From: Scytolyngbya sp. HA4215-MV1
GTDB taxonomy: Bacteria > Cyanobacteriota > Cyanobacteriia > Leptolyngbyales > Leptolyngbyaceae
Length of the DNA stretch: 64,000 nucleotides
Direction of reading: 5' to 3'
NCBI GenBank assembly: GCA_019359045.1
Contig: JAHHIA010000011.1
Location: 62,001-126,000 of the forward strand
The translations under genes were made by a program, and so were the position numbers. Below the pieces are notes generated by a model that was given only the letters and a program-made list of their open reading frames with translations, was not told the origin of the DNA and ran no database searches. Shown here in pieces: positions 5,994-49,495 of this stretch. Numbering within the stretch: the first letter of the stretch is position 1; each line of letters opens with the position of its first letter.

Positions 5994-6209
5994 CTAAATC
6001 GCTTCCAAATACTGGCTATCCATTAAGAAAGCTCCCCTGGCGAAACGCACACTCCAGTTTCCTCCGGGTCGACGATCGAGGACAATTCCTTCTTCTCCCA
6101 GCACAATCAAGTCTGGAGAGCGCAAAATGGGCATCGGATCGGCAGTTTTCACATAGGCGGGGCGGGCAATCACTCGGACTTTGGCTCCAATGGCAAATTC
6201 TTTTGACAT
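5994..6209 (-). CDS. sipA: SipA, NblS-interacting regulatory protein (DUF3148)
   Basis: This 71-residue protein matches the SipA/DUF3148 family: an SH3-like beta fold with conserved VRVIARPAYVKTADPMP, LGEEGIVLDRRPGG and VRFARGAFLMDSQYLE stretches. In Synechococcus, SipA binds the ATPase domain of the essential histidine kinase NblS, which controls high-light and nutrient-stress genes. The length is normal for the family and the start ATG (6207-6209) gives the expected N-terminus. It converges with the acyltransferase gene and is probably transcribed alone. Confidence 0.9.
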   Translation of the reverse strand: MSKEFAIGAKVRVIARPAYVKTADPMPILRSPDLIVLGEEGIVLDRRPGGNWSVRFARGAFLMDSQYLEAI

Positions 6210-6548
6210 GATTCTTAGCCTAATTAGTGGGTCTGTTAAAAGTCAGATCGCACCTTCTACCCGAAGGACTGAGCATTTGAGTCGCGATTTCAGAAACTTG
6301 TTCCCAAGCCAAAATTCAAAATCTAAAATCGAAACCGGGTTAAACACTCGACGAATCAGTTAATTGTAGGTTTATATAAGGGGGCAGATTCTCAAGATCT
6401 CTCAAAAATCTTGTGCCAGCTTAGACAAGCGATCGCATTCTGGCGTATCACTAGTTCATTCTGAATCACCAGAGCAAACGTCCGACTCATTCAAACCCAC
6501 TGTTCTAATCCCCGGTTCGTGCTCTGAGTGGCTTCCTAACAAACCACT
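6210..6548. other. Divergent promoter region
   Basis: These 339 bases separate sipA (leftward) from a glycosyltransferase gene (rightward), so both promoters should lie here. Short open frames on the plus strand look like chance. A GCGATCGC octamer occurs near 6429. No operator or RNA element was recognised. Confidence 0.45.
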
Positions 6549-40432: not shown

Positions 40433-41227
40433 TCGTCTCTCAACAATGAATGCATTGACACATTGATGTGTTTATAGGGTTGTGTTCGCACTTTCCGTCT
40501 CTAGCGTTTGCCACTTTTATCGGAAATCCGAAATAAAATGTAAACAAAATTGAACTTTTCTCATTTTGCGCCGGAAAATACTGATGATAGCCTGAAAAAT
40601 TGGTCTCAGCTCCCTTTTTGCTGCGATCGACTCAGGTTTTTTACAAAAGTTATTTACGATAGATGTCATTTTGCGCTCCCCGAAAAAGTCAAAAGCTATA
40701 CTGAATACAGAACAACCCAGTTGTTTCTGGTCAATTTCAATTCTTGCCTTGTGTATCTGTATCAGCGACAATGCCTACCCAATATGAGGTGTGGTCGGAT
40801 TTTTTAAGTTAAAAGAACGCTAAAACTAAAAGGTTCAAGCTCAACAATTTAATTGACTTTTAGCTTTTGGAGTTTCTTCTCTATTGAGATTTGTGCCTCA
40901 ATTTTTGGCTTAAAAAGAGGGCAGAAATCGCTTTTTGAGTCAATTTTTTCTAATTAACACGATTGATCATTATCTAGTTGACATGATCACTCCTTGAGTG
41001 ATGATTGCTGCTTGGATTCCAAGATTTGCTGCGAAATCTGATTGCAGCAGGTGTTGCTGTTCATTTTTTCTCATTCCTGTACGAGAAAAACTGCCAATTT
41101 ATCTTCTCCTTCTCCGATCGTTGGAACTCAGCGATCACACCACCGTCGTCCAATTCTCGTCCAGGCAATTTTCACCCACGCCGCACGCTTCAGTTTTGCC
41201 TGAAGTGTGATTTATCTTTTCAAACCT
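40433..41227. other. Long AT-rich region with no supported gene
   Basis: These 795 bases carry several short overlapping open frames on both strands (for example about 85 codons on each strand around 40517-40807). Composition is low in GC and none shows a ribosome site or family motif. The right end should contain the promoter of the beta-oxidation cluster starting at 41228; no operator was recognised. Confidence 0.5.
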
Positions 41228-43354
41228 ATGACTGGCACCCACACAATCTACCGTGCCCCACCTGACGCTTGCAAGCTAATCCTGGGGCGAACTTTGCCTT
41301 CTTTATTAGATGAAGCCTGCGATCGTTACCCCAACCCACGCGCACTCAATCAATGGCGCGATCGACGCTGGCAATCCCTTTCCAATGTCGATTTTCGCAC
41401 TGCTGCCGAAGAATTTGCGCTGGGATTGCTGGACTTGAATCTGCAACGAGGCGATCGCATTGCTCTGTTGATGTACAGCAACATTTCCTTCTGCATTGCC
41501 GATATGGGATGTTTGCTGGCGGGGTTAGTGGATGTGCCAATCGATTTAACCCAGACCATTGAAAATATCCTGTTCATTCTGCAACATACAGAAACCACAA
41601 CTCTGATTGTTTCTAATTGGGATTTGTTGCGACAGGTACAACCCTATTTGTCCGAAGCCCCAGGGTTGCGACAGGTGATTGTAGCAGAGGTGCCAGAACA
41701 GTGGGAGCAAATGCTGGCGCAGCAGTGTGGAGCGGGAGCGGTGGGCAACCCCGCTCTACAACCGCCCGCTCGCTGTTTGCACATTCCTCATCTATTGGGG
41801 GATGCCCAGACAGGGGAGACCCATTTGCTTCCACTCTTTCCTCCAACTCTTCGCCTGTTTTCCCTGGCGGAAATTCAGCAGAGCGGGCGCAGTCAGTGGT
41901 CAACTGAACGGTTGCAACAATTGCGAACTGCGATCGCCCCTAACGACCTTGCCACGATTCTCTACATTGCCAGTGAAACCAAGCGCCCCAAGGGGGTGAT
42001 GCTGACCCACGAAAATATCTCAGCCGACATCCTGGCTGCCTTTGCCAACCATCCCGATTTAGAGATGGGTGCGAAAGAAGTTGCCCTGCTGTTTTTGCCA
42101 TTGACGCATATCTTTGCTCGCGCGTTTCTCTATGGACATTTTGCCTATGGACATTGCGTATACTTTTCCGATCCAAACCATGTGATTAAGCATCTTCAAT
42201 CGATCCATCCCACGGTTTTGATTACAGTGCCACGGTTGCTAGAAAAAATCTATGAACGAATCCTCGATCAACCAAAGCGGCTAAGCAAGTTTGATCGGGC
42301 AGTGTATACTTGGGCACTGAACCTGGTACAGCGCTATGAAGTGGGGCAACTGCTCCCACCTTTTTATGCACTGCAACTGAAGCTTGCCGATCGTCTGGTG
42401 TTTGCTCAGTGGAGATCGGTGTTTGGCGATCGCATGAAAGCTTTGATTAGTGGTGGTGCTGCCCTCCGCGCCGATCTCACCAATCTCTTTTCAGGCGCGG
42501 GAATTCCCGTTTTACAGGGGTATGGGCTGACCGAAACGAGTGCCGTGCTTTGCTACAACCGGGGCAGGCATAATCGGGCAGGCACCGTGGGCAAACCCAT
42601 TGCAGGAGTGGAAATTCGGTTGGCAGAGGATGCTGAAATTCTTGTTAAAGCCCCCTTTGTCACGCAGGGATATTATCGCGACCCAGAGGCGACTCGACAA
42701 GTTCTGGAATCTGACGGCTGGCTCCATACGGGCGATCTGGGCGAAATCACGGCGGATGGCTTTCTCAAAATTACGGGCGTTAAGAAGGCTTTGTTTAAGT
42801 TATCAACTGGAAAGTACGTCTCACCCCGCTTACTGGAGTACGAACTGAACCAGTCCCCATGGGTTGCCCATGCCATCACAGTGGGTGTCAATCACAAGTT
42901 TTGCGGCATGTTGATCGTGCCCGATCGCGCCAGCCTGCAATCTAGTTTGCGATCGCTAGATATTGATTTGACCGATGCCAACGGGTTGCAGCATCCCTGC
43001 ATTCTGGCGCTTTACCAAGCGCTGATTGACACAGCCAATTGCCACCTGCCCGATTGGTCAACCGTGAGAAAGTTTAGGTTACTGGATGTCGATTTCACGC
43101 TGGAAAACGGTTTGCTGAAATCCGATGGCAGCATGAATCGCGTGCATGTCCTAGAGCGATTTGCGCCAGAGATTGAAGCCCTATATGCGAATGATGCTGA
43201 GCGGCGGTGGGGAGACACAGAGACGCAGAGGAAAGGAGGCACAGAGAATGATGCAGTCTCCGTGTCCCCGCCGCCCCCAGTTGCCGCGTCCCCCTGCCCC
43301 CAAATTCCTGTCTCTACCTGCCCTACCTATGCCCGATCGCTGACACAACACTAA
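41228..43354 (+). CDS. AMP-binding acyl-CoA ligase-like protein with degenerate motifs
   Basis: A 708-residue member of the long-chain acyl-CoA synthetase group: GYGLTETSAVL (A5), GWLHTGDLGEI (A7) and LSTGKYVSPRLLEYEL (A8) are clear. Two catalytic places are odd: the phosphate loop reads YIASETKRPKGV where YTSGTTGxPKGV is usual, and the final catalytic-Lys region reads KSDGSMNR with Ser where Lys is expected. The last 50 residues translate a low-complexity repeat. It heads the row with fadN-, fadA- and fadE-type genes, so a role in fatty-acid activation or sensing is likely, but full ligase activity is doubtful. A GTG at 41207 is an alternative start. Confidence 0.85.
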   Translation: MTGTHTIYRAPPDACKLILGRTLPSLLDEACDRYPNPRALNQWRDRRWQSLSNVDFRTAAEEFALGLLDLNLQRGDRIALLMYSNISFCIADMGCLLAGLVDVPIDLTQTIENILFILQHTETTTLIVSNWDLLRQVQPYLSEAPGLRQVIVAEVPEQWEQMLAQQCGAGAVGNPALQPPARCLHIPHLLGDAQTGETHLLPLFPPTLRLFSLAEIQQSGRSQWSTERLQQLRTAIAPNDLATILYIASETKRPKGVMLTHENISADILAAFANHPDLEMGAKEVALLFLPLTHIFARAFLYGHFAYGHCVYFSDPNHVIKHLQSIHPTVLITVPRLLEKIYERILDQPKRLSKFDRAVYTWALNLVQRYEVGQLLPPFYALQLKLADRLVFAQWRSVFGDRMKALISGGAALRADLTNLFSGAGIPVLQGYGLTETSAVLCYNRGRHNRAGTVGKPIAGVEIRLAEDAEILVKAPFVTQGYYRDPEATRQVLESDGWLHTGDLGEITADGFLKITGVKKALFKLSTGKYVSPRLLEYELNQSPWVAHAITVGVNHKFCGMLIVPDRASLQSSLRSLDIDLTDANGLQHPCILALYQALIDTANCHLPDWSTVRKFRLLDVDFTLENGLLKSDGSMNRVHVLERFAPEIEALYANDAERRWGDTETQRKGGTENDAVSVSPPPPVAASPCPQIPVSTCPTYARSLTQH

Positions 43355-43380
43355 CTGCTGCGTTTCGAGGAAAACCCATC

Positions 43381-45738
43381 ATGTTTAAACCATTTCAAAC
43401 TGCTGCTGTACTGGGTGCCGGGGTAATGGGTGCCCAGATTGCGGCTCACCTCGCCAATGCCGGACTGACGGTGCATTTGTTGGATTTGCCTGCCCCCTCC
43501 GGTGACAAAAATGCCCTGGTCGAAGGCGCATTTAAGAAAGCGTTGAAGCTCTCGCCCCCCATTTTCTTTACCGAGAAAACGGCTCAACGGGTAATTTTGG
43601 GCAATTATGAAGAACATTTCGATCGGCTCGCTCAAGTGGATTGGGTAATTGAAGCCGTAGTAGAGAACCTGTCTATTAAACAACAACTGATGGCACGCGT
43701 GGAAAAGACTATCCGTGAAGCAACGGTAGTTTCCACCAACACTAGTGGATTGTCGATCGCAGCGATTGGGCAGGGACGATCCCTCGCCTTCCGGCAGAGG
43801 TTTCTGGGCACTCACTTTTTTAATCCACCACGTTACCTCAAGTTGTTAGAACTGATTCCCACCGTTGATACCGATCCCAAGATTCTAGAGCAGATGCAAC
43901 AATTTGGCCGAATGTATTTAGGGAAGGGGGTTGTCATTGCTCAGGATACTCCAAACTTCATTGCCAATCGAATTGGCATTTTTGTGACCATGCTGGGGCT
44001 GAATGGATTAACGAAACAGGGTTACAGCATTGAAGAAATTGATACTTTGATGGGTGTGTTGGTGGGTCGTCCCAAATCGGCGATTTTCCGAACAGCTGAT
44101 CTGGTGGGGCTGGACACGCTGATTTATGTGGCAGAAAACCTATACCCAGCGCTGCCTCAGGATGAGTGCAGAGAGACATTTCATATTCCCGACCTCATGC
44201 GGAAGCTGGTGGAAACGGGATCTCTGGGGGCTAAAGCGGGACAAGGATTTTATAAGAAAGTGCAGGGTGAAATTCTGTCACTGAATCCCCAAACTTTTGT
44301 CTACGAATCAGCTAAGCCGTTGAATTTGGGGAATCTGGATGCGATCACAAAACTGCCTCTAGCGGAACGATTGCAAAAACTGTATCACCACAAAGGACGG
44401 GCAGGCGAATTTTTCCGCTACGCTACTCTTACGACCCTGGCTTACAGCGCGAACCGCATTCCTGAAATTGCTGCCAGTCCAGTGGAAATCGATCGGGCCA
44501 TGCGGTGGGGTTTTGGTTGGGAACTCGGTCCTTTTGAACTCTGGGATGTGCTAGGTTTCGAGGCGGTTTTAACCGATCTGCACAAAGCCGGATTTGCGCT
44601 GCCTCCCTGGGTCGAATCTATGCAGCAGAAAAAGGTAACTGGATTCTATCAAAAGCATCAGGTTTATCTCCCTGAGCAACATTACCATCCCTTAGAAATC
44701 CTCAGAGATGAAATTCACTTAGAAACTATCAAAGCCATTTCTCAGTCAACGCTTTGGCACAATGCAGAAGCTGCCTTGCTAGATATCGGAGATGGCGTGG
44801 TGCTGTACGAATTTCGATCGAAAGCCAACACCCTTAGCACTCAGGTAATCGATGGTCTAGGAGAAGCGTTGGACTGGCTGGAAACCCATGATTACCGCGG
44901 TATGGTCATTGGCAATGAGGGGAGCAACTTCTGCGTCGGCATCAACCTGGCAGAAGTGGGCAAAATTGTCCAAATGGAAAACCTCAATCCCTTTAACCAC
45001 TCGCATCGCGCAATCGCCAAACTGCTCACCCAATTTCAAACCCTGGTGCAGCGCATTCACTATTTCCACAAACCGATCGTTGCGGCGATTCAGGGACGAG
45101 TACTGGGTGGCGGGTGCGAATTGGCGATGGCGTGTCCTCATGTGGTTGCCGACGCCGAAACCTACATTGGTCTAGTCGAACTCGGTGTGGGGTTGATTCC
45201 CGCAGGCGGTGGCTTGATGCGACTGGCACGTTGGGCAGCCGGACGTGCCGCCACCGATACTCCAGCTGACATTTTGCCCTTCCTGAAGCGAGTATTTGAA
45301 ACGATCGGCATGGCAAAGGTATCCAGCAGCGCCTATGAAGGGATAGAACTGGGCTTTTTACCCGCAACCACGCAAGTCGTGATCAATGGCGATCGTCGCC
45401 TCTACGCTGCCAAACAAGAAGTTCTTTGCCTCGATCACCTGGGCTATATCCCGCCTTCGCGCAATCCCATCCCCGTTTTGGGACAGCCCGCCAGAGCCAT
45501 GCTGGAGCACATGGCATACATCTTGCACCAGGGTGGCTACATTAGCGACTACGATCGCGCCCTCGCCGATCGACTGGCTTATGTCCTCACAGGTGGCAAC
45601 CTGACCGCACCCGCCCAGGTTGACGACGATTATCTGTTAACCCTGGAGCGCGAAAACTTCCTGCCCCTGGTCGATGCACCCAAGACGAAAGAACGGATGC
45701 TGCATATGTTGAAGACGAAGAAACCGTTGAGGAATTGA
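43381..45738 (+). CDS. fadN: 3-hydroxyacyl-CoA dehydrogenase/enoyl-CoA hydratase (FadN type)
   Basis: A 785-residue bifunctional beta-oxidation enzyme. The dehydrogenase comes first ([16 protein letters not shown] fold at about 11-24; catalytic [10 protein letters not shown] His; [11 protein letters not shown]), and the enoyl-CoA hydratase part is C-terminal (oxyanion loop [14 protein letters not shown] with the first catalytic Glu, [15 protein letters not shown] with the second). This is the reverse of E. coli FadB and matches Bacillus FadN in order and length. All expected catalytic residues are visible. The ligase-like gene is 26 bases upstream and fadA starts 2 bases downstream. Confidence 0.93.
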
Positions 45739-45740
45739 CC

Positions 45741-46922
45741 ATGAACACCACCTACATTGTGAGCAGTGTGCGAACTGCGGTTGGCAAAGCCCCTCGCGGC
45801 ACACTGCGCCATACTCGTCCCGATGACTTAGGGGCAGCAGCAGTGAGAGGCGCTATCGCCCAAGTCAAAGGACTGATCTCGAATCAAATTGAAGATGTGA
45901 TCATCGGCTGTGCCATGCCTGAAGCAGAACAGGGCTTTAATCTGGGACGGGTTGTGGCATTGCGGGCAGGCTTACCAGACTCAGTGGCAGGCTGCACTGT
46001 CAATCGCCTGTGCTCGTCCGGCTTGCAGGCGATCGCCATGGCAGTCCAGGCGATCGCCTGCGGACAGGCGGAAGTGATGGTGGCAGGAGGAGTGGAGTCC
46101 ATGAGCCTAATTCCCATGGGCGGACAGCAGTTTTTGCCCAATGTCGAACTGCTTGCTGAAGCCCCGGAAACCTATATCTCAATGGGGCTGACGGCTGAGA
46201 ATGTGGCAACCCAATTCCAGATTTCTCGCGCCGATCAAGATGCCTTTGCCTTGCGATCGCACCAGCGAGCCATTGCGGCGATCTCGGCTGGACATTTCAA
46301 AGCAGAAATCGTTCCAGTCACTGTGCGAGAAACTCGTTACGTCAACGGCAAAACTGAAACGATTGAAACCCTGTTTGACACCGACGAAGGTGCGCGCGCG
46401 GATACCAGCTTAGAAGCACTGGCTCATCTCAAACCTGTGTTTCGGGTGAATGGCACCGTCACAGCAGGCAACTCTTCCCAAATGTCCGATGGGGCTGCTG
46501 CGACCCTCCTGATGAACGATCGCTGGGTCAAGGAACTGGGAATTCAACCCTTGGCACGATTACTCGGCTTTGCGGTTGCCGGAGTTGCGCCTGAAATCAT
46601 GGGCATTGGTCCTGTCGTTGCCATTCCCAAAGTGTTGAAACAAGTTGGCTTAACCCTCAAAGACATTGGACTGATCGAACTCAACGAAGCCTTTGCGGCA
46701 CAATCCCTGGCAGTGATCCGCGTGTTGGGTTTGGACGAAGCCATCGTCAATGTGAACGGCGGCGCGATCGCGCTTGGTCATCCCCTCGGTTGCTCTGGTG
46801 CTAAACTCACTGCCACCCTGTTGCACGAAATGAAGCGTCGCCATATTCGCTATGGCATGGTGACGATGTGCGTCGGTGGTGGCATGGGTGCTGCAGGCGT
46901 GTTTGAAAACCTGATGATCTAG
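45741..46922 (+). CDS. fadA: Acetyl-CoA C-acyltransferase, 3-ketoacyl-CoA thiolase (FadA)
   Basis: A 393-residue thiolase that splits 3-ketoacyl-CoA in the last step of beta-oxidation. Cys91 in [14 protein letters not shown] is the nucleophile; His347 in [11 protein letters not shown] and Cys377 in [10 protein letters not shown] complete the catalytic set. The ATG at 45741 is preferred to the overlapping TTG at 45735; GAGG lies 9 bases before it, inside the end of fadN. The two genes are 2 bases apart and surely co-translated. A hairpin follows at 46932. Confidence 0.95.
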
Positions 46923-46931
46923 CCATTTTTT

Positions 46932-46963
46932 AGGGTGCGTTACGGCGTTGTCTAACGCACCCT
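46932..46963 (+). repeat. 11-bp hairpin between fadA and fadE
   Basis: AGGGTGCGTTA and TAACGCACCCT are perfect complements with a 10-base loop. The GGGTGCGTTA palindrome resembles dispersed repeats common in cyanobacteria. No T-run follows, so read-through into fadE is likely; it might lower downstream expression. Confidence 0.6.
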
Positions 46964-47044
46964 TCCAGAATTTTAGATGCATGACCCAGTTGTTACACAG
47001 AGCTGAACGCACCCGATGGCTCTGATCAAATTTGGAATAACCCT

Positions 47045-49495
47045 ATGATTCCCCACTCACTCACCCTTACCATTTCCGGCTTGCTTTCCCTATTCCTGCT
47101 GTTGGGCTATCTGGGTGCTCCACTCTGGCTCTGGACTGTTTATGGAGCAATGCTTTGCGGGGTGGTCAATCCACCGATCGCAGTTTGGATACTTTTGGGT
47201 GTTACTGCGTTGATCCTTAACATCCCCTGGTTACGGCAAAAGTTGGTGACAGGCTGGATTGTCAAAGCGATTCAAGCAATGCAAGTATTGCCTAATATTT
47301 CAGAGACCGAGCGGGCAGCGATCGAGGCAGGCAATGTCTGGGTCGAAGGCGAATTTTTCACTGGCAAACCTGACTTGCAGCGCATTCTCAACGAGCCTTA
47401 TCCGCAAACTTCTCCAGAGCTTCAGGCATTTTTGGACGGTCCTGTGGAAAAGGTCTGCCAAATGGCAACGGACTGGGAGATCTATCAGCGCAAAGATTTA
47501 CCGACAGCAGTTTGGGATTATCTCCGGCAAGAGCGCTTCTTTGGCATGATGATTCCCCAGGAATACGGTGGCTTGGGCTTTTCTAATTTGGCGTACAGTT
47601 CCGTGATGGTGAAACTGGCATCACGTTCCTTTACCCATGTCGCAACCGTAGGGGTGACCAATTCGCTGGGACCCGCTAAACTCCTACTGCGCTATGGCAC
47701 GCCGGAGCAAAAGCAATACTATCTGCCCCGATTGGCAAAGGGAGAAGAAATTCCCTGCTTTGCGCTGACGGAGCCAAATGCGGGGTCGGATGCGGCGAGT
47801 TTGATTTCGCATGGGGACGTGTTTCGAGGGGAAGATGGCAAGCTCTATCTAAGACTGAATTGGAGGAAGCGCTACATTACGCTGGGCGCGATCGCCACCC
47901 TGTTAGGGCTGGCATTTCGTCTGCGTGACCCCGACAACCTGCTAGGTAAAGGCAAAGAACCGGGCATTACTTGTGTGTTGGTGCCGACTCAGACACCTGG
48001 TGTAGTGATTAACCAGCGTCATGATCCAATGGGGGTGCCGTTCTACAACTCCCCAACTGAGGGACACAACGTCATTCTGCCGGTAGAACAAATCATTGGG
48101 GGGGTGGAGCAAGCCGGACAGGGTTGGAAGATGTTGATGCAGGCGTTGGCTGCGGGACGGGGCATCAGTTTTCCGGCAACCTGTACGGGCGTGGCAAAAT
48201 TGGTGGCACGGGTGGCAGGTGCCCATAGCGTGATTCGACGACAATTTGGACTGTCGATCGGTCGCTTCGAGGGCATTGAAGAACCCCTAGCTCGCATCGC
48301 CGGATTGACCTATGTGATTGATGCTGCCCGCCTCTATACTTGCGGTGCAGTGGATAACGGGCAACAGCCTGCAGTGGTCTCTGCGATCGCCAAATACCAA
48401 ACTACGGAACTTGCCCGACAAATCATTAACGACGGCATGGATATTTTGGCTGGCTCCGGCATTTGTCGCGGTCCTCGCAACTTGTTAGCCAATATCTACA
48501 CTGCCACACCGATTTCGATCACCGTAGAAGGTGCGAATATTCTCACCCGCACGTTGATGATTTTTGGGCAGGGGGCAATTCGCTGTCATCCCTGGGTCTA
48601 TGACGAAATTCAAGCGTTGAGCCGTGGCGATGGGGTTGGATTCGATCGCGTCTTCTGGTCCCACATGGGAACAATGATTCGCAATGGCTTCCGTACCAAG
48701 CTGTTGAGCCTGACTCGTGGACGGTTGGCACGATCGCCCGTTACTGGTGTCACGGCTCCTTACTACCGCAAACTTGCCTGGGTATCGGCTATCTTCGCCT
48801 TCCTGACCGATTTGGCAATGCTCTCTCTGGGGGGGGCACTCAAGCGCCAGGAAAAACTGAGCGGACGATTTGCCGATGTCCTGTCCTGGCTCTACCTAGG
48901 GTCTGCGACCCTGCGCCGCTTCGAAGCAGAAGGACGACAACCGGAAGATCTGCCCCTGGTGCATTGGGCAATGCAGTACGCTTTTGTCCAAATGCAACAG
49001 GCGCTTGAAGGCATTGTCAGTAATCTAGAAATTCCTGTTCTGGGTGGCTGGCTGCAAGGATCGATGTTGACCTGGTGGCGGTTAAATCCGATCGGCACAA
49101 TGCCTTCCGATCGACTTGGCAGCCAGGTGGCACAAAGTTTGCAACAACCGGGACAGGTTCGCGATCGCCTCACTCAGGGCATTTACCTTCCCACCGATCC
49201 ACAGCAAGCCCTGGGACGAATCGAACATGCTTTTGCTCTGGCACATCAAGCAGAACCGATCTTGCAAAAAATCAAAGCTGCCAGTCGCAGCGGACAATTA
49301 CCCTCAAGCAAACCTGATCAGTTGCTAGAGTTGGCTTACCAATCTGGGGTGATCAGCGAAGCTGAAGTTACCCTGATCTGCGAAGCCGAATTTGCCCGAA
49401 ATGATGCGATTCAGGTGGATGCCTTCAATTTTGAGGAGTATCAAAGCGGGGGGAACGCGCACCCCGAGTCGCTCAGTGAATTGGTAAGGGTTTAG
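47045..49495 (+). CDS. fadE: Acyl-CoA dehydrogenase, E. coli FadE type
   Basis: An 816-residue flavoenzyme for the first oxidation of beta-oxidation. Length and sequence match the E. coli FadE type: two N-terminal membrane segments (about 5-60), ISETERAAIEAGNVWVEGEF, FFGMMIPQEYGGLGFS, EIPCFALTEPNAGSDA, RYITLGAIATLLGLAFRL, GRFEGIEEPLARIAG and ITVEGANILTRTLMIFGQGA, followed by a C-terminal DUF1974 extension. The form is common in proteobacteria and rare, to my knowledge, in cyanobacteria. It is 122 bases after fadA and ends the cluster with a clear terminator. Confidence 0.95.
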   Translation: MIPHSLTLTISGLLSLFLLLGYLGAPLWLWTVYGAMLCGVVNPPIAVWILLGVTALILNIPWLRQKLVTGWIVKAIQAMQVLPNISETERAAIEAGNVWVEGEFFTGKPDLQRILNEPYPQTSPELQAFLDGPVEKVCQMATDWEIYQRKDLPTAVWDYLRQERFFGMMIPQEYGGLGFSNLAYSSVMVKLASRSFTHVATVGVTNSLGPAKLLLRYGTPEQKQYYLPRLAKGEEIPCFALTEPNAGSDAASLISHGDVFRGEDGKLYLRLNWRKRYITLGAIATLLGLAFRLRDPDNLLGKGKEPGITCVLVPTQTPGVVINQRHDPMGVPFYNSPTEGHNVILPVEQIIGGVEQAGQGWKMLMQALAAGRGISFPATCTGVAKLVARVAGAHSVIRRQFGLSIGRFEGIEEPLARIAGLTYVIDAARLYTCGAVDNGQQPAVVSAIAKYQTTELARQIINDGMDILAGSGICRGPRNLLANIYTATPISITVEGANILTRTLMIFGQGAIRCHPWVYDEIQALSRGDGVGFDRVFWSHMGTMIRNGFRTKLLSLTRGRLARSPVTGVTAPYYRKLAWVSAIFAFLTDLAMLSLGGALKRQEKLSGRFADVLSWLYLGSATLRRFEAEGRQPEDLPLVHWAMQYAFVQMQQALEGIVSNLEIPVLGGWLQGSMLTWWRLNPIGTMPSDRLGSQVAQSLQQPGQVRDRLTQGIYLPTDPQQALGRIEHAFALAHQAEPILQKIKAASRSGQLPSSKPDQLLELAYQSGVISEAEVTLICEAEFARNDAIQVDAFNFEEYQSGGNAHPESLSELVRV

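Follow-up and report, generated by a model that had tools for sequence, protein, structure and literature searches.

A putative beta-oxidation operon in scattered cyanobacteria in which no electron transfer flavoprotein was detected

Four consecutive genes of Scytolyngbya sp. HA4215-MV1 raise the questions of whether a cyanobacterium can degrade fatty acids by beta-oxidation and which acceptor would take the electrons released by the acyl-CoA dehydrogenase. The genes encode a ligase-like protein, FadN, FadA and an E. coli-type FadE and are located on a stretch of 64,000 nucleotides of contig JAHHIA010000011.1 (positions 62,001 to 126,000), referred to here as the window. According to the accessible text of PMC6123915 beta-oxidation is not present in cyanobacteria, available excerpts of PMC7133116 and PMC11973298 describe Synechocystis as lacking beta-oxidation genes, and an excerpt of PMC11546870 calls the pathway incomplete. 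For a non-photosynthetic Melainabacteria genome the pathway has been predicted (PMC4040986, in the part available). Neither the operon in cyanobacteria nor a cyanobacterial FadE acting without electron transfer flavoprotein (ETF) was found in a literature search covering titles and abstract openings, with most subscription journals outside its scope. The explanation favored here, with a probability of about 0.6, is a self-contained beta-oxidation operon that moves between cyanobacteria and whose FadE works without ETF. It draws on computed gene content, gene order, catalytic residues of FadN, FadA and FadE, co-occurrence, the lack of a detectable ETF and discordant inheritance, from which enzyme activities, membrane attachment, the electron acceptor and the source and fate of the carbon were predicted.

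Gene content and conservation of the operon

The first-pass annotation had described the four genes as consecutive on one strand, with a gap of two bases between fadN and fadA, and had read them as a beta-oxidation gene set. Open reading frames as well as Pfam and NCBIfam models confirm this arrangement (Table 1). FadN contains the domains 3HCDH_N, 3HCDH and ECH_1 in FadN order; its top NCBIfam match, Staph_FadB, scores 645.8 bits and stays below the cut-off of 999. The thiolase reaches 471.1 bits with TIGR01930 (cut-off 240.55) and is the sole Thiolase_C match in the 6.6 Mb genome. FadE combines the Acyl-CoA_dh N, M and 1 domains with ACDH_C and exceeds the cut-off of NF007000 (1042.8 against 600 bits), but not those of the E. 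coli-specific model NF038187 (FadE_coli; 877.1 against 1300 bits) and of the Bacillus-type FadE model NF058590 (102.2 against 600 bits). Judged by these scores, it is homologous to the FadE_coli subfamily, yet stands outside it. The ligase remains below the cut-off in all 25 NCBIfam models shown of the 85 matched, with FadD11 as the top match and a best FadD score of 218.8 against 950 bits, and shares 26% identity with the nearest other ligase of the genome, which was not identified as Aas. Its putative role as a CoA ligase and its assumed substrate are suggested by the operon context; on this assumption, genes for every reaction of the cycle plus activation are present.

Residue conservation was read for FadN, FadA and FadE from columns of MAFFT alignments, in which positions had been placed by alignment with solved structures. 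The alignments comprised cyanobacterial rows and those of the FCB/Gemmatimonadota group, a label used here for nine loci (L141-L149) that include a deltaproteobacterial metagenome-assembled genome (MAG) and an unclassified MAG. Among the residues with catalytic roles in these families, the Cys-His-Cys set of the thiolase (C93, H349, C379) is kept in 41 of 41 rows, the glutamate of FadE (E495, in an EGAN stretch) in 40 of 40, and E157 and N196 of FadN in 42 of 42. S122, H145, E580 and E600 of FadN are each kept in 41 of 42 rows, the exceptions being split genes (L095, L102). Protein families and conserved residues thus both support the proposed beta-oxidation gene set, and the operon very probably carries out this pathway, as far as function can be predicted from sequence.

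The order ligase-FadN-FadA-FadE was found in all 31 other cyanobacterial loci inspected, a single gene being split in two of these. Twenty of the loci had been fetched and picked for breadth among genomes that have FadN and FadE on the same contig, and 11 were named loci from a genome scan, some of which belong to genomes that also occur in the draws described below. Such constancy, together with the conserved catalytic residues, is far from chance. In the class draw of 388 genomes, ACDH_C as the mark of FadE occurred in 74 genomes, with a single match in each, and FadN (E<=1e-60) in 72. Both were present in 70 genomes, FadE alone in four and FadN alone in two (Fisher p 1.6e-69, relatedness ignored). 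In all 61 genomes in which the two share a contig, FadN precedes FadE on the same strand, at a distance of 2.6-4.3 kb from the ACDH_C match; in nine of the 70 they are on separate contigs.

Table 1. Predicted features of the operon and its upstream region (window coordinates)
Feature	Coordinates	Strand	Basis
Acyl-activating ligase (AMP-binding + AMP-binding_C_3), presumed long-chain acyl-CoA synthetase	41228..43354	+	PF00501 + PF23562 over cut-off
fadN, 3-hydroxyacyl-CoA dehydrogenase (N-terminal) fused to enoyl-CoA hydratase (C-terminal), 785 aa	43381..45738	+	PF02737, PF00725, PF00378 over cut-off
fadA, 3-ketoacyl-CoA thiolase	45741..46922	+	TIGR01930 over cut-off; Thiolase_N + Thiolase_C
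fadE, E. coli-type acyl-CoA dehydrogenase, ACDH_C domain, hydrophobic N-terminal helices, 816 aa	47045..49495	+	NF007000 over cut-off; PF09317 3.9e-103
Region upstream of ligase, putative regulatory role	40433..41227	+	Consensus scan: promoter-like match 40978-41005; stem-loops 41024-41052, 41184-41209

The ligase reading frame extends from a GTG (41207-43354, 715 aa), but translation probably starts at the ATG at 41228, since in many relatives the N-terminal match sets in at residues 2-8; in other relatives it sets in deeper in the protein. The listed fadA frame starts with a TTG at 45735; its third residue is the ATG at 45741, where many relatives start aligning, and the two-base gap is therefore right when counted from this codon. 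Upstream of the ligase, promoter and terminator matches were within the numbers obtained with shuffled sequence, and the 400-base upstream regions of 18 loci, searched for an operator, shared no convincing word. A stem-loop of 10 pairs at 41184-41209, with a T-rich stretch behind it, ends directly ahead of the ATG of the ligase and could be an attenuator, a kind of match that is not above chance in this region. Elsewhere in the genome, a second acyl-CoA-dehydrogenase-like match adjoins an AMP-binding match (G000:C16:150788-153253), possibly as part of a natural-product cluster.

ETF and the electron acceptor of FadE

ETF is the electron acceptor of acyl-CoA dehydrogenases in mitochondria as well as in many bacteria. 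Searches with PF01012, which we take to represent both ETF subunits, gave no match over the cut-off in 40 operon-bearing and 20 operon-free cyanobacteria, one of the latter containing a fragment below it. None was found in 34 further genomes with FadN and in four named cyanobacteria, which may duplicate others. In total, none of the 74 genomes with FadN had an ETF match over the cut-off, and 72 of them also harbor FadE; four FadE-only genomes lie outside this set. The same search was positive in 10 of 14 control genomes, Synechococcus elongatus not being among the ten, and ETF-bearing genomes show adjacent pairs of PF01012 matches. ETF was also present in all five genomes tested whose FadN precedes a short dehydrogenase that, by tblastn alone, was classed as Bacillus-like. 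Cyanobacteria thus seem to lack ETF whether or not they carry the operon. The mitochondrial scheme with ETF as acceptor does not match what was found, and the operon, if it works, works in hosts in which ETF was not detected. The model for ETF:quinone oxidoreductase (PF05187) had no match in operon carriers either; as it is also absent from ETF-bearing genomes of the FCB group and from most controls (present in 3 of 14), this says little. FadE is the sole protein with an acyl-CoA dehydrogenase middle domain in 8 of 21 operon-bearing cyanobacteria, and no such match was seen in 8 of the 10 operon-free relatives included in the test.

Because ETF was not found in the carriers, FadE would most likely pass its electrons directly to the plastoquinone pool, with oxygen as the main alternative acceptor. 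It is likely that FadE is independent of ETF in these hosts, and direct reduction of quinone has an even chance. The available parts of PMC11495604 and PMC9329746 know of no ETF partner for E. coli FadE, and direct quinone reduction by this enzyme is considered possible in the former. The window protein resembles E. coli FadE in containing ACDH_C and shares 46.6% identity with it over residues 46-815. Hydropathy was checked in seven FadE rows, three of them cyanobacterial and four from the FCB/Gemmatimonadota group, and in each the first ~60 residues are strongly hydrophobic. An AlphaFold model built with 19 sequences (pLDDT 79.4, pTM 0.84) has helices at 4-23, 27-41, 45-59 and then 61-79, which suggests that the protein may be attached to the membrane through its N-terminus. 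The model is weak at 239-253, 276-287, 326-336 and 489-502, and as the last stretch includes E495 no active-site reading was drawn from it.

FadE might act instead as an acyl-CoA oxidase that, like peroxisomal enzymes, delivers electrons to oxygen and produces H2O2, so that contact with quinone would be unneeded. In favor of such an enzyme, no genome with FadN has a detectable ETF, oxygen is plentiful in oxygenic cells, and the accessible text of PMC11495604 reports that E. coli FadE yields H2O2 and that its predicted structure resembles ACOX-1. However, the hydrophobic N-termini point to membrane coupling, and among the 50 Foldseek rows viewed the solved structures closest in fold are those of VLCAD and ACAD9 along with further long acyl-CoA dehydrogenases, with no acyl-CoA oxidase among the rows. 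An oxidase is a rather unlikely alternative. Replacement of ETF by a diverged or unrelated protein that the ETF model misses is unlikely. It would fit the other acyl-CoA-dehydrogenase-like proteins of ETF-free genomes: the window's genome has three middle-domain matches and that of Roseithermus sacchariphilus five, both without an ETF match, and for some of these proteins other acceptors or oxidase behavior must therefore exist. Against it stands the success of the search in most controls and in the five genomes with Bacillus-like operons, although no systematic search for an extra conserved gene was made. That ACDH_C does the job of ETF within FadE and passes electrons to the membrane chain is very doubtful: the domain is strongly conserved here, and an excerpt of PMC9329746 suggests such a role for E. 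coli FadE and calls the C-terminus essential in Salmonella, but the same review notes a lack of experimental support, and no ETF match occurs in ACDH_C among the Pfam families listed.

Distribution, probable movement and relatives of the operon

Among the 386 genomes of a draw from the phylum, cyanobacterial-type FadN was found in five, including that of the window (G000, G183, G191, G209 and G332). The window's family is represented by at least 37 genomes in the class draw and by three in the phylum draw; because of this difference, neither provides an unbiased prevalence. Among the genomes examined, the operon is present in a patchy minority of cyanobacteria across 11 families, with Fischerella thermalis PCC 7521 and Xenococcus sp. 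PCC 7305 among the carriers. This supports the rarity presumed in the first-pass annotation. Two genomes of other classes in the phylum draw (G047, G053) harbor a different type of FadN at full length (45% and 39% identity), which falls outside the cyanobacterial clade. In the former (L128, 6562-11397), FadN and thiolase are followed by a short dehydrogenase match instead of an E. coli-type FadE.

All trees were calculated with a quick method and support values from the Shimodaira-Hasegawa-like approximate likelihood ratio test only, so that a star (*) carries less weight than it would in a more thorough analysis, especially where long rows are involved. The rpoB tree groups the window's family f1 (12 rows, 88) as well as the families f23 (94), f18 (98*) and f5 (86). 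In the tree of the four concatenated operon proteins, which includes two loci with a partial ligase or FadN (L112, L102), f1 requires four changes, three of which are forced by starred branches. Approximately unbiased tests within cyanobacteria (FadA plus FadE, LG+G4) reject f1 (p 2.85e-95) and f23 (p 0.0056) as single operon clades, whereas f18 (p 0.652) and f5 (p 0.158) are not rejected, and rpoB rejects a seven-genome clade of the operon tree (p 6.4e-11). This conflict between operon and rpoB, with operon copies of one clade, indicates that the operon has probably moved among cyanobacteria, and it bears out the suspicion of transfer in the first-pass annotation. Differential loss of old duplicates could still account for the conflict, but each of the 74 genomes with ACDH_C contains only one match.

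One copy is located on a plasmid, pMB02 of Acaryochloris sp. 'Moss Beach' (L095, NZ_CP071719.1, 6169-14343), with a transposase gene about 5 kb from the four-gene cluster. In this copy the FadN frame is broken, FadN is missing from the gene table and the ligase is annotated as two coding sequences, so it may be decaying. Old vertical inheritance with very many losses and no horizontal transfer would agree with the single cyanobacterial clade in all four protein trees and with the f18 and f5 clades, which the tests did not reject. It is quite improbable in view of the rejected f1, f23 and seven-genome groupings, the plasmid copy and the surroundings of the operon, as the six proteins flanking it in the window were found near none of 20 other cassettes (flanks of 0.4 to about 5 kb).

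Outside cyanobacteria, relatives were identified by a genome scan with a FadN alignment, from which the best 80 of 590 confirmed relatives were considered. Ligase and thiolase relatives, and those of FadE outside a plasmid search, were sampled solely beside FadN matches, so that nearer ones may exist elsewhere. After 11 cyanobacteria, the highest FadN identities belong to Rhodothermota (57, 56 and 53%), the deltaproteobacterial MAG (54%) and two Gemmatimonadota (53-54%), followed by a Balneolia MAG (50%) and by a Bacteroidetes and an unclassified MAG (46%); Bacilli and others share 40-45%. The same four genes occur in the same order in three Rhodothermota (L141, L142, L145), the Bacteroidetes MAG (L148) and the unclassified MAG (L149), with an E. 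coli-type FadE of 53-62% identity. FadN-FadA-FadE is found in the Balneolia MAG (L146) and one of the Gemmatimonadota (L147), FadN-FadA on a short contig (L143) and FadN alone within 12.9 kb in the other (L144, Gemmatimonadetes).

The first-pass annotation had regarded the locus as a mixture of a Bacillus-like FadN and a proteobacterial FadE. This view does not hold, since the whole operon exists in the same order in Rhodothermota and relatives, whose FadN (53-57%) and FadE (59-62%) are closer than FadN of Bacilli (at most 45%) and FadE of proteobacteria (at most 48% in the 40 of 100 plasmid records listed). A mosaic assembled within cyanobacteria is likewise rejected by its occurrence as an entity in Rhodothermota and the Bacteroidota MAG, as is a clade of cyanobacterial FadN with five FadN of Bacilli (p 2.3e-56). 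The most similar operon among the relatives sampled is that of Roseithermus sacchariphilus (Rhodothermota, CP030158, L142), with the same genes, order and strand and the highest or near-highest identities outside cyanobacteria (FadN 56%, FadA 69%, FadE 62%, ligase 45%). It differs in its non-cyanobacterial host and in a gap of ~1.6 kb between ligase and FadN, where another acyl-CoA-dehydrogenase match lies at about 6093-6374. Bacillus-type operons share the FadN domain order and, as on a Priestia plasmid, the order fadN-fadA-dehydrogenase. However, their dehydrogenase matches FadE over the core only (23-28% in those Bacilli rows that gave a match), and the five genomes with such operons in which ETF was found include three Bacilli. 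In E. coli, FadB has the hydratase first and the beta-oxidation genes are scattered. A Piscirickettsia salmonis plasmid (NZ_CP039041) harbors FadN, thiolase and an E. coli-type FadE in the window's order, but with identities of 35, 55 and 42% and no ligase annotated within the 20 kb stretch.

In the single-protein trees, from which short or split rows had been dropped (L102 from FadN, L095 and L112 from ligase, with L095 also missing from FadN), the cyanobacterial rows form one clade for FadE (99*, 33 rows), FadN (100*, 31), FadA (97*, 33) and ligase (99*, 31). In all four this clade stands beside the FCB/Gemmatimonadota rows and apart from others, and the joint clade of cyanobacterial and Rhodothermota proteins is supported by 100* (FadE), 99* (FadN), 100* (FadA) and 100* (ligase). 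By gene order and by these joint clades for each protein, the operon belongs to a Rhodothermota type. The FCB/Gemmatimonadota group forms one branch for FadE (82), FadA (93) and ligase (94) but is split for FadN. In tests with 17 of 32 cyanobacterial rows, neither this group as one clade (p 0.717) nor cyanobacteria plus Rhodothermota as one clade (p 0.213) is rejected. The phylogenies proposed in the first-pass annotation show a single cyanobacterial clade at odds with rpoB, while transfer in either direction between the FCB/Gemmatimonadota group and cyanobacteria is compatible with them.

Carbon fate and significance

In the proposed pathway the ligase would convert free fatty acids, probably released by membrane-lipid turnover, to acyl-CoA, which FadE, held at the membrane by its N-terminal helices, would oxidize to trans-2-enoyl-CoA. 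FadN would hydrate this product and oxidize the resulting 3-hydroxyacyl-CoA with NAD, and FadA would split off acetyl-CoA. Isocitrate lyase was clear in 2 of 40 carriers (G419, G332) and in 1 of 20 operon-free genomes (G469); a third carrier (G484) has a fragment just over the cut-off (26.5 bits), two operon-free genomes have fragments below it, and 37 of the 40 carriers gave no match. A standard glyoxylate shunt is therefore not possible in most carriers tested, and acetyl-CoA would more likely enter respiration, lipid re-synthesis or storage than support growth on fat alone. The purpose of the operon may accordingly be energy recovery or lipid turnover.

The operon might, alternatively, modify or shorten particular acyl chains or run in the synthetic direction, with the ligase charging acyl carrier protein (ACP) instead of CoA. 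This is very unlikely, as every activity of the catabolic spiral is present with its catalytic residues and characterized relatives of FadN and FadA act on CoA thioesters. The rarity of isocitrate lyase and the low ligase scores would fit it nonetheless. A further parallel is Aas (Slr1609) of Synechocystis, compared here by description only: according to an excerpt of PMC11973298, this fatty-acid-activating ligase belongs to the same superfamily as the operon ligase, yet acts as an acyl-ACP synthetase and sends fatty acids back to ACP despite its homology to CoA ligases.

Several points weigh against a working, ETF-independent beta-oxidation operon. The ligase, being under all model cut-offs shown, could load ACP, and the activity, expression and localization of all operon proteins are predictions. 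Genes are interrupted in 3 of 33 copies: apart from the plasmid copy these are L102 (8249-8281, G588), in which the FadN frame is split, and L112 (10764-10767, G535), in which the ligase frame is split, by sequencing error or decay alike. Of the seven genomes of the FCB/Gemmatimonadota group that encode an E. coli-type FadE, five contain ETF, which was not detected in Roseithermus (complete genome) and a Gemmatimonadota MAG. As some ETF-free genomes contain additional acyl-CoA-dehydrogenase-like proteins, a missing ETF is not a feature that sets FadE apart. The ETF-like role of the E. coli FadE C-terminus is proposed without proof in the part of PMC9329746 available. Finally, one report of retained fatty-acid catabolism in Synechocystis, cited in the accessible text of PMC7133116, implies that another route without these genes may exist.

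The favored explanation nevertheless places a conserved beta-oxidation cassette in scattered cyanobacteria, a group from which beta-oxidation is absent according to the available text of PMC6123915; the statement of absence in PMC7133116 concerns Synechocystis. Because ETF is undetected in these hosts, the carriers offer a natural test of the open question about E. coli FadE. The broader proposal is tentative, at somewhat less than even odds: FadE would be a membrane-bound, ETF-free acyl-CoA:plastoquinone oxidoreductase, the same would apply to E. coli-type FadE in general, and the laterally moving operon would spread this ability. The operon is also relevant to the production of fatty acids in cyanobacteria, where their breakdown is often assumed to be absent. 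If the proposal is true, the breakdown of membrane lipids would tie into the quinone pool that is common to photosynthesis and respiration.

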